Assembly: GCA_015491735.1 (NCBI GenBank) | Contig: WFVH01000023.1 | Span: 1 to 64,000 of the forward strand | From: Gammaproteobacteria bacterium | Lineage (GTDB): Bacteria; Pseudomonadota; Gammaproteobacteria; Thiohalospirales; Thiohalospiraceae | Reading direction: 5' to 3' | DNA length: 64,000 bases | Part shown: positions 32,372 to 56,171 of the stretch, piece by piece | Numbering within the stretch: the first letter of the stretch is position 1 | Layout: the number at the start of each line of letters is the position of its first letter | Position numbers and translations under genes: made by a program | The notes under the pieces: model-generated | The model's database searches: none | What the model saw: only the letters and a program-made list of their open reading frames with translations | What the model was told of the DNA's origin: nothing

Positions 32372-32489
32372 GTAGCCATTCCGCAGGGTATGAAACAAGC
32401 CGGTTACTGTTCAAATTGCCCCTGAAATCCGCCATTTCTGCGATGAACGCCTTGAACTGACGGATTTCAGGGGCGAGCTGAATCGTTAC
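32372..32489 (-). repeat. Family A MITE, 118-bp older copy
   Basis: The inside (GAAACAAGCCGGTTACTGTTCA, CCCCTGAAATCCGCCATTTCTG, CTTGAACTGACGGATTTCAGGGGC) matches the reverse complement of the full copies, and the ends GTAGCCATTC and GAATCGTTAC are decayed. The flanking octamers ATTTCATG and GTTTCATT agree at 6 of 8 positions. It ends 3 bases before the purA stop codon. Confidence 0.75.
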
Positions 32490-41776: not shown

Positions 41777-41928
41777 GTAACTATTCAGCTCACCCCTGAA
41801 ATCCGCCATTTCCGCGTTGAAAAAGGGTCATTTACACGCGTAAACTCCCATTTTTCGCCTTGAACTGACGAATTTCAGGGGCAATCTGAACAGTTACCGG
41901 CTTGTTTCATACGATGCTGAATAGTTAC
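41777..41928 (+). mobile_element. Family A MITE, complete 152-bp copy (IS66-like ends)
   Basis: The ends GTAACTATTCAGC and GCTGAATAGTTAC are perfect inverted repeats of 13 bases. The flanks are perfect 8-bp direct repeats ATTGGCTT (41769-41776 and 41929-41936). The element encodes nothing and contains an inner pair of CCCCTGAAAT / ATTTCAGGGG words. GTAA ends and 8-bp duplications are typical of the IS66 family. It lies between the EcfT gene and fimV; the rest of that gap (41937-42082) holds no gene. Confidence 0.9.
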
Positions 41929-42082
41929 ATTGGCTTACTGTAAGCTCTCGTATCTTCGCTTTGAAGCGCCCCCCCGAGGCAATCCGCGCAGTTACTTCCC
42001 AATCGTACAAACCCGTGGGGGGATGGATTCGCTACATCTCAATCCGAGCTAAAACAGCTGATTCCCGAACATCAACGGCCGC

Positions 42083-50900: not shown

Positions 50901-51000
50901 GTAACTATTCAGCATAGTATGAAACAAGCCGGTAACTGTTCAGATTGCCCCTGAAATTCGCCTTGAACTGACGACTTGCAGGGGTGAGCTGAATAGTTAC
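50901..51000 (-). mobile_element. Family A MITE, 100-bp deletion copy (IS66-like ends)
   Basis: The copy is inverted relative to those at 41777 and 55677 and lacks about 50 internal bases. The ends GTAACTATTCAGC and GCTGAATAGTTAC are intact, and the 8-bp flanks TATTACAT (50893-50900 and 51001-51008) are perfect direct repeats. It ends 18 bases before the glutaredoxin start codon, thus in that gene's promoter region. Confidence 0.9.
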
Positions 51001-51018
51001 TATTACATTATATAAAGC

Positions 51019-51405
51019 ATGAGACTCGTTATCCGATATTTCTTTAAAGGCGTTCGCGCCCTCCTCGGCCCGATTCTGTTGGCAGCTGACCGGCTGACCG
51101 CGCCGCGCGGCATCAGGCGCGACCCGCAAACACAGCAGCACATCGATGCGCTGACAAAAAGCCTCGCCCTATACCACTTTCCTACCTGCCCGTTCTGCAT
51201 CAAAACACGGCGCACCATCAAACGCCTGTCACTCAACATCGAAACCCGTGATGCCAAAAATGATACCGTCAACCGTCGGGAGCTGCTGAACGGTGGCGGA
51301 GAAATCAAGGTTCCCTGCCTCCGGATCAGTAAAGAAGGAGGCAGCGAGGAGTGGCTGTACGAATCAGACGAAATCATCAGATATCTGCAAACACGTTTTT
51401 CATAG
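51019..51405 (+). CDS. Glutaredoxin-like protein with N-terminal extension
   Basis: This 128-residue protein has a thioredoxin fold with the redox motif C57-P-F-C60 in LYHFPTCPFCIKTRR, the cis-Pro region KVPCLRI and a glutathione-binding type end YESDEIIRYL. The first 48 residues hold a partly hydrophobic segment (VRALLGPILLAADRL) that may anchor it at the membrane. It converges on the GshB-like gene, but a MITE separates it from any upstream promoter. A role in glutathione-dependent thiol exchange is inferred. Confidence 0.85.
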   Translation: MRLVIRYFFKGVRALLGPILLAADRLTAPRGIRRDPQTQQHIDALTKSLALYHFPTCPFCIKTRRTIKRLSLNIETRDAKNDTVNRRELLNGGGEIKVPCLRISKEGGSEEWLYESDEIIRYLQTRFS

Positions 51406-51540: not shown

Positions 51541-52593
51541 CTATAACACGGCAATCTCCCGGTTACTGAGGCGATGGTAGTAGCGGCGCATCTGTGCCAC
51601 TTTCTTCTCCAGAGCATGGGTTATCAGCCGGCTGAAATGTACTCCGCTAAAGCGTTCGGCACTGTATAACCCCCCGGGACTGAAGACATTTATCTCCATC
51701 AGTTTGTTACCCACGATATCCAGCCCCGCCAGAAACATTCCATCCCGTATCAATTTAGGGCGCACGGCCTCCGCCAGTTGCAGTATGGCCTCGTCCACCG
51801 AAGCCGGATGGGAAACCGCCCCGGCAGTCATGTTGTTGCGCATATCACCATCACCCGGTCGACGAGCGCGACGAAACAGAGCGTATTTCCCCTGATACTG
51901 CAGTGGTTCACCGTTCATCAAAAAAAGCCGCGTATCACCCTTTGCCGCCTCGGGAAGATACTCCTGCGCCACCACATAGTCTTCGGCGGATATCGCTTCG
52001 ATCATCTGGTTGATATTGGCCTGTTCATCTGGGCGAACCAGAAACACATTGTGTCCACCGGAACCGGATAGCGGTTTGAGAACCGCGTAACCGCCAAGGT
52101 TTTTGATAAACAGCTTAATCTCCTGGCTATCCCGGGTAATCAAGGTACGGGGCCGGACCTGCTCCGGAAAATACTGCAGGTACATCTTGTTCATCGCCTG
52201 CGCCAGACCATCGGGGTCGTTGAGCACAATCACCCCGTGGCGCATCGCCAATCGGGAAAAATTGACCCCGGCCAGCCGGGCCCACGGGCGCTTGATGACA
52301 TCCTCTGCCGGATCATTTCGCAACAGCAGAACATCCAGCTCTTCCAGCGCAATCCCTCTGATCCGGGCGTCAGGCCCGCGCAGCCGGTTAAGATAGGCAC
52401 TGGTGCTTCGGTATCGCCGCAGCGGAACAGAGTACGCCCGCGCATGGGCGTTTTCATCAGGACCACAGGCGAAATCGGCCACGCCCATGTACCATACTTC
52501 GTGGCCCAGATTGGTGGCAGCCATGGCCAGATGGGTGGTGGTGTAGTCATCCATCTCCGTGTTGATGCTGTTTACCACAATCCCGAGTTTCAC
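51541..52593 (-). CDS. GshB-like ATP-grasp ligase
   Basis: This 350-residue enzyme has the fold of glutathione synthetase: N-terminal domain opening KLGIVVNSINTEMDDYTT, ATP-grasp lysine K173 in VLKPLSGSGGHN, Gly-rich loop 177-181, D220 and R222 (GDTRLFLMNGEP), and the metal ligands E300 and N302 (MEINVFSPGG). It may be the cell's glutathione synthetase. However, it is the last gene of an operon with a QEGLA metallopeptidase and an amidohydrolase, so ligation of an amino acid to another peptide substrate is equally possible. The start is GTG at 52593, directly after the stop of the upstream gene. Confidence 0.85.
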   Translation of the reverse strand: MKLGIVVNSINTEMDDYTTTHLAMAATNLGHEVWYMGVADFACGPDENAHARAYSVPLRRYRSTSAYLNRLRGPDARIRGIALEELDVLLLRNDPAEDVIKRPWARLAGVNFSRLAMRHGVIVLNDPDGLAQAMNKMYLQYFPEQVRPRTLITRDSQEIKLFIKNLGGYAVLKPLSGSGGHNVFLVRPDEQANINQMIEAISAEDYVVAQEYLPEAAKGDTRLFLMNGEPLQYQGKYALFRRARRPGDGDMRNNMTAGAVSHPASVDEAILQLAEAVRPKLIRDGMFLAGLDIVGNKLMEINVFSPGGLYSAERFSGVHFSRLITHALEKKVAQMRRYYHRLSNREIAVL

Positions 52594-54474
52594 CTATACC
52601 CCCTCCTCGAGCAGCGTCAGCAGCGAAGGTTGCCGACGCAACCGGGCCAGCCTCTCTTTTGCTTCTTCCTTCTGCAGATAATGGGGACGCAACGGCGCAG
52701 GCTCAAGAACGCGGCGCCACCGCAACTCTTCGATGAGCGGCAGATGCTCCAGAGCAATCTTGCCAAGTAACAGCGGCTCAAGCTCTCCGCCCTCCCCCAG
52801 GTGGTCCAGCAGCTCCACCAGGCCGCGAAGATAGACCGCATCCTTGGTAAAGCCACCACCACGGAAGACCCGCATGGCGATAAGGAAAGCGCTGTATTCC
52901 GAAAAGCCCCCATTTGCGTTCAGTTCACGAAACGTTTCAACAAAATCCGCGCCGTCACTCAGACAATGCACGGCAATGACCCGGCCCGCCAGCAGGCGCA
53001 TACGATGGCCGTCCAACCCTCCCGCCAGATACTCCGAGAGCACCGCAAGCCCCTCCTGCAACGCTTCATAACCCGCCAGTCCCGCTTGCAGTTGCCGAAA
53101 AGGCTGATAACCACCGTTGTGCCAGGTCACAACGTGGGTGCCAACCTCATGAGCCAACGCGGCAGCAACCCTGCCTGCGGGTACGCGAACATCCGCACCA
53201 ATCAGCAGATCCCCTCTGGAAACCATCAAGCCGGAGATATCCTGACGCACCTCCAGACGAGCGGAAAAATCCGCATACTGTCGCCGGTACTGTTCAATTT
53301 CCCGGCGGGCGCGGGCAGCAAAAGCCGCTGCGTCCAGTACGGGCGCTTCCGGATCCGCATGAATGGGCGGCAGCTGTTCCAGTAGCTGCCTTGCCTGTTG
53401 CAGCAGCGGCTCATCCACCTCACCGTAAATCTGCTGACTGCCATGGAAAAAACGCCGCGTACCCCGATCAGCAATCAAGGTAATCTGTCGATCAAGCTCC
53501 TCCCGTTTGGCAGAGAAAATGACCGCGAGCGTCGGATCTTCAATCCGCTCCAGCGGAATCCCGTACAAACGCCGTTTCAATTGCGCCGGCTGCAGCGGAC
53601 GGGGCCGGTAGTGAAACTCTGGCGGCCGCGCGAAGCGGGCCTCCTTGAACGCTTTCCAGGCAGCAGCCACATTGACTGGTGTAACGTGCAACAGAATATC
53701 AAAACCACGACTGATCGCTGCCAGAGCGACATCTGATTCCTGCACTACCGGCGTCATGGCGTGACGCCCCAACTCATGATAATGAGTCGGCCGGTGGCGA
53801 GTGTAGCTGTGCGAAAAGGTGTAGAAGGTTTTCTTCAGTACCCGCCCCAGGTCTTGACGGAACTGTTCCAGTACGAAGGGAAACAGCACACCCGTGCCGG
53901 CATCCCGATACAGTGGCGGTACGCCAAGGCCGAGCAGCAGACACTCCACTTTACCGTTTGCAGGACAGGGCAAAGGCGGTAGTCCCGGTGGTGCGGGCCG
54001 CTCCTGGTAATCCACCGTTACCTGTAACGCGGTTTCATCTACCTGCACGCCGAGCAGGCTGTTCTCCAGCGTTTCCAGCAACGCCGACGGCGTATTGCTG
54101 GCCGGGGCGACAACATGAAACACGGGCTGCTCCATCGGCCGGCTCTCCTCCGTCCAGATCTCCAGCAGCATAAATGCGCCAAACGCGGCCCCCTGGATTT
54201 GCACAATCTCCTGAACGAGTCCCGCAACCCAGCGGTACCGTTCCGGTTCACCTGCAGCAAGCAGATAAGAGGCCTCACCCAGCAGCAACGATTTGGTTCC
54301 GGGATCAGCCCGCTGTGCAGGCCGCCGATAGACACAAAGAAAAGGGAGACGGCGGTCAATGTGCAGCCGTCCCCACCCTGGCAGCCTGCGCCTGACCCAG
54401 CTATTTTCCCGCAAGGGCTTGCTGACAGAGGCGATAAAAGTCCCGTCTGCCACCGCGTCCTGCTGCCTGTTCAC
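52594..54474 (-). CDS. QEGLA-motif (DUF1704) metallopeptidase-like protein
   Basis: This 626-residue protein matches the so-called flavohemoglobin expression-modulating QEGLA motif family. The zinc motif is H442-E-V-G-T-H447, and the third-ligand glutamate is E474 in Q473-EGLA. This arrangement is shared with the eukaryotic MATCAP tyrosine carboxypeptidases, so carboxypeptidase activity is a fair inference. The first 240 residues form a separate domain of unknown fold. The GTG start overlaps the amidohydrolase stop by 4 bases (GTGA). No signal peptide is seen, so it acts in the cytosol. Confidence 0.88.
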   Translation of the reverse strand: MNRQQDAVADGTFIASVSKPLRENSWVRRRLPGWGRLHIDRRLPFLCVYRRPAQRADPGTKSLLLGEASYLLAAGEPERYRWVAGLVQEIVQIQGAAFGAFMLLEIWTEESRPMEQPVFHVVAPASNTPSALLETLENSLLGVQVDETALQVTVDYQERPAPPGLPPLPCPANGKVECLLLGLGVPPLYRDAGTGVLFPFVLEQFRQDLGRVLKKTFYTFSHSYTRHRPTHYHELGRHAMTPVVQESDVALAAISRGFDILLHVTPVNVAAAWKAFKEARFARPPEFHYRPRPLQPAQLKRRLYGIPLERIEDPTLAVIFSAKREELDRQITLIADRGTRRFFHGSQQIYGEVDEPLLQQARQLLEQLPPIHADPEAPVLDAAAFAARARREIEQYRRQYADFSARLEVRQDISGLMVSRGDLLIGADVRVPAGRVAAALAHEVGTHVVTWHNGGYQPFRQLQAGLAGYEALQEGLAVLSEYLAGGLDGHRMRLLAGRVIAVHCLSDGADFVETFRELNANGGFSEYSAFLIAMRVFRGGGFTKDAVYLRGLVELLDHLGEGGELEPLLLGKIALEHLPLIEELRWRRVLEPAPLRPHYLQKEEAKERLARLRRQPSLLTLLEEGV

Positions 54475-55304
54475 AGTCTGTTCAGCTCCTCAATCACCCC
54501 CGGAACGGTAGAGGCTATTGCATCCTGAACCGCCTTGACCAGAACCGGATCAGCCTTGCCGGTCCATTCATCCATGTAAAACTTTTTCACCTCAATGGCC
54601 AGGGCGCAACCCGTCTCCGGAAAATGGCTGTGTACCCAGCCGGGAAAGTAGCGCCCCTTGAAAACCACATTTTCACCAACGCTGAGATGACGGTCCGGGA
54701 AATCATACTCCTGTATATCACGCAGGAACCGCTCCACTACAGGCGCCCAACGCTTGCGATCCATGGTGCCTGTCCCGAGATTGATATCAGGGTGAGTCGC
54801 GGGATCGGCAGGGAGGGCATCAGGCCCCTGCCGCCGGTGGTTATAAGCGTGCAGGTCATACACCACAAAATGACCGTAGCGCCGCACCATTCCTGTCAGA
54901 AATTTTTCCAGCTCCTGGTAGAACGCGTTATATTCAGCCAGCGAACGTTCAATCATTGCGTTAGTGGGTGTGTTTTTCCATACCTTCAGGTTCCAGGCAT
55001 CCTCCGGCCGCAGATAGACCGCTTCATGTTTTGCCCGGTTCAGATCAACCTCAAAACGCGAGCGTGCAGGAATTATCCAGTTAGGCGCAACCGTAGTCCA
55101 CTGATCAGTATAGGGATCCTCCTCCCGCAGGCGGGCCGCCTCATCCAACGCCGTCAGCTCGAGCAGCTCAGGCCGTAACAGGTGCCCGGAATGGAGAGCC
55201 GTGGCAAAAAGAACCCCTTCCCCCTTATGTTCATACCACAAGGGAATCTGATCGGAACCCTCGACTACCTCAACATCGCGGATGCGCCCGCTATCATCAT
55301 TCAT
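54471..55304 (-). CDS. N-formylglutamate amidohydrolase-like protein
   Basis: This 277-residue protein is of the N-formylglutamate amidohydrolase (HutG2) fold. Likely metal and substrate residues lie in ATALHSGH (34-41), RSRFEVDLNRAK (81-92) and DLHAYNHRR (150-158). No hut gene is nearby, so histidine breakdown is unlikely. The neighbours suggest it cleaves an amide or amino-acid bond in a peptide-like product. It lies 38 bases after the small Cys-rich gene and overlaps the QEGLA gene. Confidence 0.82.
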   Translation of the reverse strand: MNDDSGRIRDVEVVEGSDQIPLWYEHKGEGVLFATALHSGHLLRPELLELTALDEAARLREEDPYTDQWTTVAPNWIIPARSRFEVDLNRAKHEAVYLRPEDAWNLKVWKNTPTNAMIERSLAEYNAFYQELEKFLTGMVRRYGHFVVYDLHAYNHRRQGPDALPADPATHPDINLGTGTMDRKRWAPVVERFLRDIQEYDFPDRHLSVGENVVFKGRYFPGWVHSHFPETGCALAIEVKKFYMDEWTGKADPVLVKAVQDAIASTVPGVIEELNRL

Positions 55305-55342
55305 TACGATAACCAGATGGCCAGGAAAAGCAGCGCCGCAAG

Positions 55343-55588
55343 TCAGACGTTATCCGGATCGCACTCACCCTGCCGTATCCAGATACCATAATCACAACGC
55401 AACAACGATTCCCCGCTGCACAGGTAGCTTCCGTTGGGGTAACTGATATTGTTGAAGTAACAGTACGGATCTCCGGGGACCTCCTGCTTGAGCACTTCAA
55501 ATTCATCGCTCTCCTCATCCGCGATGGGAGAGTTTTTCAACTCCGGATCCGGGGCGCCAACCTGGCGCACATGTGCTCGTCTATCCAT
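55343..55588 (-). CDS. Small Cys-rich protein, unknown; possible peptide substrate
   Basis: This 81-residue protein has a charged, acidic N-terminal half without predicted structure (residues 1-40) and a compact C-terminal half with C43, C57, C65 and C76, aromatic residues (YCYFNN, GIWIRQGEC) and the end DPDNV. The C-terminal spacing resembles DUF1496-like small domains, though I am unsure. ATG 55588 follows GGGGGAG at 3 bases; a GTG at 55603 would contain that ribosome site. It is first in the four-gene operon with the ATP-grasp, peptidase and amidohydrolase genes. It has no signal peptide. It may be the substrate of these enzymes or a binding partner. Confidence 0.7.
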   Translation of the reverse strand: MDRRAHVRQVGAPDPELKNSPIADEESDEFEVLKQEVPGDPYCYFNNISYPNGSYLCSGESLLRCDYGIWIRQGECDPDNV

Positions 55589-55676: not shown

Positions 55677-55828
55677 GTAACTATTCAGCTCACCCCTGAA
55701 ATCCGCCATTTCTGCGTTGAAAAATGGTCATTTACACGCGTAAACTCCCATTTTTCGCCTTGAACTGACGAATTTCAGGGGCGATCTGAACAGTTACCGG
55801 ACTGTTTCATACTATGCTGAATAGTTAC
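55677..55828 (+). mobile_element. Family A MITE, complete 152-bp copy (IS66-like ends)
   Basis: The sequence is nearly identical to the copy at 41777-41928 and has the same length. It has the same 13-bp inverted ends, and its 8-bp flanks AACTCAGG (55669-55676 and 55829-55836) are perfect direct repeats. It lies about 90 bases upstream of the small Cys-rich gene's start and could influence that operon's promoter. Confidence 0.92.
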
Positions 55829-56171
55829 AACTCAGGAAGAAAAACCGGAACCGCTCCCCGGACAGCAGCCTGATTATCAATCTGACAACGACTTATCCAT
55901 CATCCGGATTCCAAAAGCGAGGCTACGGGGGCATTGCAAAAAAAATGTGAAAGCCACCCCATTTTTCAATGAAACAGCCGTTTCAAGCAGGAATTCACCA
56001 TTTTATCATCTTGCTCTCTGATGTATCCTGCTCAAGGTGCGGTCAACTCGGCAACACAGCAGGCATGTATTTTGTTGGTGCTCCTGGCGCCCTCGCTCAA
56101 ACCCACCGGAGCCCGTGGCATCTATTCACTCCGGTGACGATCTACCGGATCAACGATAACGGGAACGTACT
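55829..56171. other. Non-coding DNA upstream of rnd
   Basis: No gene is supported in these 343 bases. A plus-strand frame at 55969-56217 overlaps the rnd start, lacks a ribosome site and encodes nothing recognisable. The rnd promoter is expected here but no clear box pair was seen. Confidence 0.4.

Follow-up and report, generated by a model that had tools for sequence, protein, structure and literature searches.

A predicted bacterial gene module joining a GshB-like ATP-grasp ligase, a QEGLA metallopeptidase and an N-formylglutamate amidohydrolase-like protein

Introduction

In Pseudomonas, the ATP-grasp glutamate ligase RimK is co-transcribed with RimB, a protease that reverses its product (PMC12239564), and relatives of the peptidase MATCAP remove the C-terminal tyrosine or glutamate from tubulin (PMC10499314). 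For the MATCAP/DUF1704 peptidases of bacteria, we found no function in the open-access literature. Likewise, the papers that we found on the "flavohemoglobin expression-modulating QEGLA motif protein" (TIGR02421, COG3930) describe neither a function nor a domain make-up. Genes of this type have been recorded beside presumed glutathione genes. In Photobacterium damselae, adjacent "GshB" and QEGLA genes were up 38- and 27-fold at 1% NaCl, that is, at low salt (PMC10308900), and in Vibrio vulnificus a "glutathione synthetase" gene and a COG3930 gene are direct neighbours, the pair VV2_1203/VV2_1204 being specific to clade 2 (PMC3091676).

Here we analyse a gammaproteobacterial locus in which a QEGLA gene is flanked by an ATP-grasp ligase gene and a gene for a protein resembling N-formylglutamate amidohydrolase (FGase), a gene set of which we found no description in open-access papers.

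Results

The window, by which we mean the whole 64,000-nucleotide stretch that was analysed, contains four minus-strand genes in a row. They comprise a small cysteine-containing protein (55343-55588; 81 residues from an ATG start, with the pattern VGAPDPEL...C...C...C...CDPDNx), a stand-alone FGase-like hydrolase (54471-55304; 277 residues), a QEGLA protein (52594-54474; 626 residues) and an ATP-grasp ligase (51541-52593; 350 residues). The small gene is separated from the FGase gene by 38 nt, the FGase and QEGLA genes overlap by 4 nt, and the QEGLA gene abuts the ligase gene without a gap. Open reading frame and family profile searches thus reproduced the coordinates, spacing and family assignments given in an earlier note on this DNA. 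No Rfam match to an RNA element was obtained at the locus. A link to phages or defence was considered and rejected, as there was no PADLOC match and the single PHROG match, to an S6-glutaminyl transferase, was marginal. A glutaredoxin/GST-N-like protein of 128 residues (51019-51405, plus strand) is encoded convergently with the module and shows no sign of belonging to it. Directly upstream of the small gene lies a MITE-like element of 153 bp (55677-55829) with perfect 13-nt terminal inverted repeats (GTAACTATTCAGC); a further copy occurs at 41777-41929 and partial copies at 32372-32433 and 50901-50962. At least 40 copies, many of them at contig ends, were scored at 97-98% identity in the 2.4-Mb genome, where a first look gave 317 candidates.

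The three larger genes form, by their distribution, a real conserved module. Among 370 genomes of the class, a full-length QEGLA protein was found in 15, the ligase in 16 and both in 15 (p = 8e-26), the sixteenth ligase genome (G260) having a partial ligase match only. Strong-scoring FGase relatives were identified in 12 of the 370 genomes, all 12 of which also encode QEGLA (p = 4e-20); these p-values ignore phylogeny, although the holders span 12 families. To look beyond the class, an alignment of QEGLA proteins was scanned against 84,980 species genomes, which yielded 80 best loci from about 12 phyla. These were chosen by similarity of the QEGLA protein and not by their neighbours; 77 were readable, and adjacency was counted from the locus table. 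The ligase gene lies within 1.5 kb of the QEGLA gene in 74 of the 77 and the FGase gene is its direct or near neighbour in 67, leaving about 13% of readable loci in which no FGase was recognisable. The order or strand of the genes differs in four loci (L066, L089, L099 and L102), where they still lie together, and the same triad occurs on rhizobial plasmids.

No conserved gene for a target protein accompanies the module. Near it, in subsets of the loci from different phyla, raw counts gave MscS-type channels (8 loci), sigma-54 regulators (7) and the magnesium transporters CorA (5) and MgtE (3). The mechanosensitive-channel genes lie within 7 kb of the module (L058, L070, L073, L093, L098, L109, L116 and L129).

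The QEGLA protein was recovered by the PF08014 (MATCAP) profile at 293 bits and by TIGR02421 at 339.1 bits, just above the cut-off of 338.65. Its peptidase domain (residues 275-613; 52636-53652, minus strand) has the HExxxH motif and downstream glutamate of the MATCAP/DUF1704 family, and H442, E443 and H447 (HEVGTH, 442-447) and E474 are invariant in 16 homologues. The AlphaFold2 model is confident (pLDDT 90.8), and its C-terminal part matches human MATCAP (7z6s) with a Foldseek probability of 1.0. Weaker matches to M14-like and phosphorylase/hydrolase-like folds and to Shewanella metallopeptidases were assigned to the N-terminal part of the model, from a table without aligned positions. The zinc site anticipated in the earlier note was thereby confirmed, but the protein is more than a single-domain peptidase: residues 1 to about 245 (53740-54474, minus strand) form a separate, degenerate FGase-like domain. 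A comparison of 97 such N-terminal domains with 80 FGases by hhalign gave a probability of 96.9 and an E-value of 1.8e-10 over 175 columns; the similarity is significant only with alignments of this size, small ones giving a probability of 0.9. The HxxH segment is missing from these domains, in the window as elsewhere; the window domain has also lost the histidine of the DxH motif, a position that is tryptophan in 77 of the 97. Because homology to FGases is combined with loss of the metal ligands, we interpret the QEGLA subunit as a MATCAP peptidase attached to an FGase domain that is dead by its sequence, and kept beside a live FGase. This domain make-up is a new finding of the present analysis; the pseudo-FGase domain is absent from the descriptions of TIGR02421/COG3930 that we found.

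The stand-alone FGase-like protein belongs to PF05013 (75.9 bits, cut-off 28.9) and retains the presumed metal and substrate residues H38, H41, R83, D87, N89, R90, H152, E238 and K241. Among the 80 FGases, the three histidines are kept in 79, 73 and 78, the glutamate in 79, and the asparagine-arginine pair in 78-79. A search by sequence found no solved structure for the FGase profile. There was no NCBIfam match that would identify the window protein as HutG, nor a hut operon setting; its partners in the window and in most relatives are the QEGLA and ATP-grasp genes. Elsewhere in the gammaproteobacteria, and on a Vibrio plasmid among others, an FGase domain is followed by a MATCAP domain in a single open reading frame (L048:1425-3428, L049:3217-5220, L050:6447-8438, L051:2055-4079 and L171:5314-7305). 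The FGase is intact in these fusion proteins and an ATP-grasp gene abuts the fused gene in L048-L050. Next to the Vibrio fusion, encoded on one plasmid, there is no ligase gene. We infer that the Photobacterium and V. vulnificus pairs are of this fused type. In three loci without an FGase, a hydrolase of the AstE/AspA type (M14-like) is encoded beside the ligase (L119:11007-11903, L125:10958-11857 and L128:9947-10936) and possibly replaces it. The FGase gene in one genome (G007, L037:8465-9399) is broken across two reading frames, a decayed or missequenced copy. Co-occurrence, adjacency and gene fusion together bear out the proposal of the earlier note that ATP-grasp, QEGLA and FGase form a functional unit.

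The ligase contains the GshB domains PF02955 and PF02951 and all eight GshB catalytic residues examined (K136, K173, R222, R252, N254, D292, E300 and N302), positions that are kept in nearly all of 103 ligase homologues. It belongs to the NF009110 (PRK12458) subfamily (413 bits, cut-off 408) and scores below both gshB equivalog cut-offs, with about 193 bits against 299 for TIGR01380 and 203 bits against 272 for NF003573. The RimK model gave 69 bits against a cut-off of 143, and the RimK Pfam profile 45 bits. A canonical gshB (448 bits, cut-off 299) adjoins gshA (PF08886) on contig 59 of the same genome, which is the second gshB that the earlier note had advised looking for, and the window ligase is therefore not the only gene of this kind. 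A separate canonical gshB was likewise present in 9 of 9 triad-bearing gammaproteobacteria tested. The suspicion that glutathione synthesis does not explain this gene set was thus well founded for the window's genome, given the sub-cut-off scores and the gshA-gshB pair elsewhere. In 12 genomes of Bacteroidota and Planctomycetota with the triad or the ligase-QEGLA pair, no canonical gshB scored above the cut-off. Since most of them have a PF04107 protein, the triad ligase may have a glutathione role in some of these lineages.

Tandem ligase genes occur in seven loci (L043, L044, L058, L073, L078, L080 and L096). They fall into separate, position-specific clades that are common to several species and therefore do not represent recent duplicates. 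The first tandem copy has lost the equivalents of the metal-binding residues D292, E300 and N302 in L043:2934-3980, L044:1445-2494 and L078:8845-9891, where the second copy is intact; by these residues, a dead/live pair of pseudo-ligase and ligase is possible in the three loci. The Planctomycetota have two or three tandem ligases, all copies of which look active by their residues. In Planctomycetes bacterium Pan216, one ligase gene (L082:8902-9948) is split by a stop and is a decayed or missequenced copy.

Comparison with two relatives of the genus showed the small gene to be genuine, with dN of about 0.11-0.13, dS above 1.1 and a dN/dS ratio of about 0.1. Its product had no family match above threshold, that to DUF1496 being sub-threshold, and its resemblance to a von Willebrand C-like fold was weak (E above 1). 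The family (e.g., L155:4579-4824 and L157:5453-5698) has four cysteines and fixed ends: VGAPDPEL lies near the start, and the protein finishes with CDPDNP. Two members have lost C57 and C76 together, which suggests pairing of C57 with C76 and of C43 with C65. Members were found in 47 of the 370 genomes, 39 of which lack the ligase, and the small protein is missing from 8 of the 16 genomes with the ligase. Both occur in 8 genomes where 2 would be expected (p = 2e-4 without phylogenetic correction), an excess that may reflect phylogeny. The small gene adjoins the module in this genus only and the two occur independently elsewhere; no widespread partner of the small protein recurs in the 17 neighbourhoods read outside triad loci. 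Nor is there another conserved short gene upstream of the FGase gene in the loci examined, where the earlier note expected one; the 70-residue reading frame found there in Sinorhizobium is unrelated.

A conserved four-gene system that includes the small protein was accordingly rejected, since small protein and ligase mostly occur apart. The earlier note had named as fatal to its proposal that the four genes would not stay together in relatives. This applies to the set of four, from which the small protein drops out, and not to the set of three. We regard the small protein as most likely a passenger, or else a partner specific to this lineage, and in either case outside the conserved module.

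Discussion

Our preferred hypothesis is that the triad consists of a ligase and a dedicated two-headed metallohydrolase that make and remove an amino-acid amide. The ATP-grasp enzyme would activate a carboxylate as an acyl-phosphate and couple this to an amino group, so that an acceptor gains an amino acid or a short chain. The stand-alone FGase-like subunit would contribute an M14-like site that is active, and the QEGLA protein a MATCAP carboxypeptidase site borne by a dead FGase copy. Because active and dead FGase domains are paired, and because FGase and MATCAP domains are fused in some species, the dead domain probably docks with the active FGase. Both metallohydrolases may act on the same type of bond, trimming or removing what the ligase adds in a writer/eraser arrangement like that of RimK/RimB or of the tubulin ligase and MATCAP. 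The target would probably be the C-terminus of a peptide or protein, probably under ionic or osmotic stress, in keeping with the low-salt induction in Photobacterium and with MscS, CorA and MgtE genes near some of the loci. Sequence shows that the module is conserved and independent of gshB, what its domains and fusions are and that its active sites are intact; we infer the shared product, the complex, the stress role and the type of acceptor, and put this reading at roughly 45%. Hydrolases in such a cluster can also serve precursor trimming or salvage instead of reversal, and the loci without an FGase, the plasmid fusion without a neighbouring ligase and the lack of a conserved target gene likewise count against this reading.

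A tentative but serious alternative is a small-molecule pathway, in which the ligase builds a small peptide-like metabolite such as a thiol, an osmolyte or a storage dipeptide, with the two hydrolases serving to process or recycle it. The ligase resembles GshB most closely and retains the GshB N-terminal domain, and the two or three intact tandem ligases of the Planctomycetota would suit stepwise building. The activity of FGase relatives on N-acyl amino acids also counts in its favour. The low-salt induction in Photobacterium could suit a small solute. Across phyla, however, the triad has no recurrent transporter, cofactor or tailoring gene beside it, and the MATCAP relatives that have been characterised to date act on the tails of proteins.

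One may also ask whether the writer/eraser hypothesis can be narrowed to a bacterial counterpart of tubulin tyrosination and detyrosination, in which the ATP-grasp enzyme would add C-terminal residues to a bacterial protein under ionic stress, and the MATCAP domain on its pseudo-FGase scaffold would remove them together with the active FGase. We regard so specific a version as unlikely.

That the ligase is a plain glutathione synthase isozyme with unrelated neighbours, as public annotation has it, is very improbable. The GshB-like fold with all its catalytic residues is as this would predict, and the triad ligase is the best GshB-like gene in the 12 Bacteroidota and Planctomycetota genomes tested. 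Against it stand the scores under both equivalog cut-offs, the additional canonical gshB in all nine gammaproteobacteria and the near-perfect coupling of the ligase to QEGLA and FGase. Furthermore, Parapedobacter luteus, one of the 12 genomes without a canonical gshB, has the triad and no match to any of three gamma-glutamylcysteine ligase families (PF04262, PF04107 and PF08886). Finally, the ribosomal-peptide pathway suggested in the earlier note, with the 81-residue protein as substrate or precursor, agrees with a co-directional small gene that precedes the module by at most 38 nt in three genomes of the genus, a fixed CDPDNP end and the modest co-occurrence with the ligase, but is hardly credible for a family that does not accompany the ligase in relatives and is conserved at both ends without a leader/variable-core pattern, in a unit lacking a transporter and a leader peptidase.

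The bacterial MATCAP/DUF1704 peptidases, which are common, are now linked in about 12 phyla with an FGase and one specific ligase, so that the role of the QEGLA proteins becomes directly testable by experiment; the pairing of active and dead FGase domains is a structural prediction that can be tested as well. The triad genes are routinely misnamed as genes for glutathione synthesis and histidine breakdown. Our findings suggest that many genes annotated as a second glutathione synthase encode something else, among them one that was highlighted under that name in a low-salt transcriptome (PMC10308900).

The triad resembles several known systems in part. Its ligase shares fold and catalytic residues with GshB, whereas its scores fall below the equivalog cut-offs, a canonical gshB is present elsewhere in the genome and its operon partners are different. 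The FGase-like protein matches HutG/N-formylglutamate amidohydrolase at the level of the family (PF05013), with the presumed metal ligands intact, but has no NCBIfam match and is tied to QEGLA and ATP-grasp genes. Like RimK/RimB, the triad combines an ATP-grasp ligase, here a distant homologue of RimK, with a dedicated peptidase. RimB, however, is an aspartic retropepsin, whereas the triad hydrolases are predicted zinc enzymes; RimK/RimB includes neither an FGase nor a MATCAP protein, and the triad, with its GshB-like ligase below the RimK cut-off and no retropepsin gene in the unit, does not belong to that system. The tubulin tyrosination cycle, with TTL and the MATCAP/TMCP detyrosinase, is similar in that its ligase is of the ATP-grasp superfamily and its peptidase is homologous to QEGLA, with the same HExxxH...E site. 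The triad differs from that cycle in being bacterial, in having a GshB-like ligase instead of TTL, and in the addition of an FGase and a pseudo-FGase.
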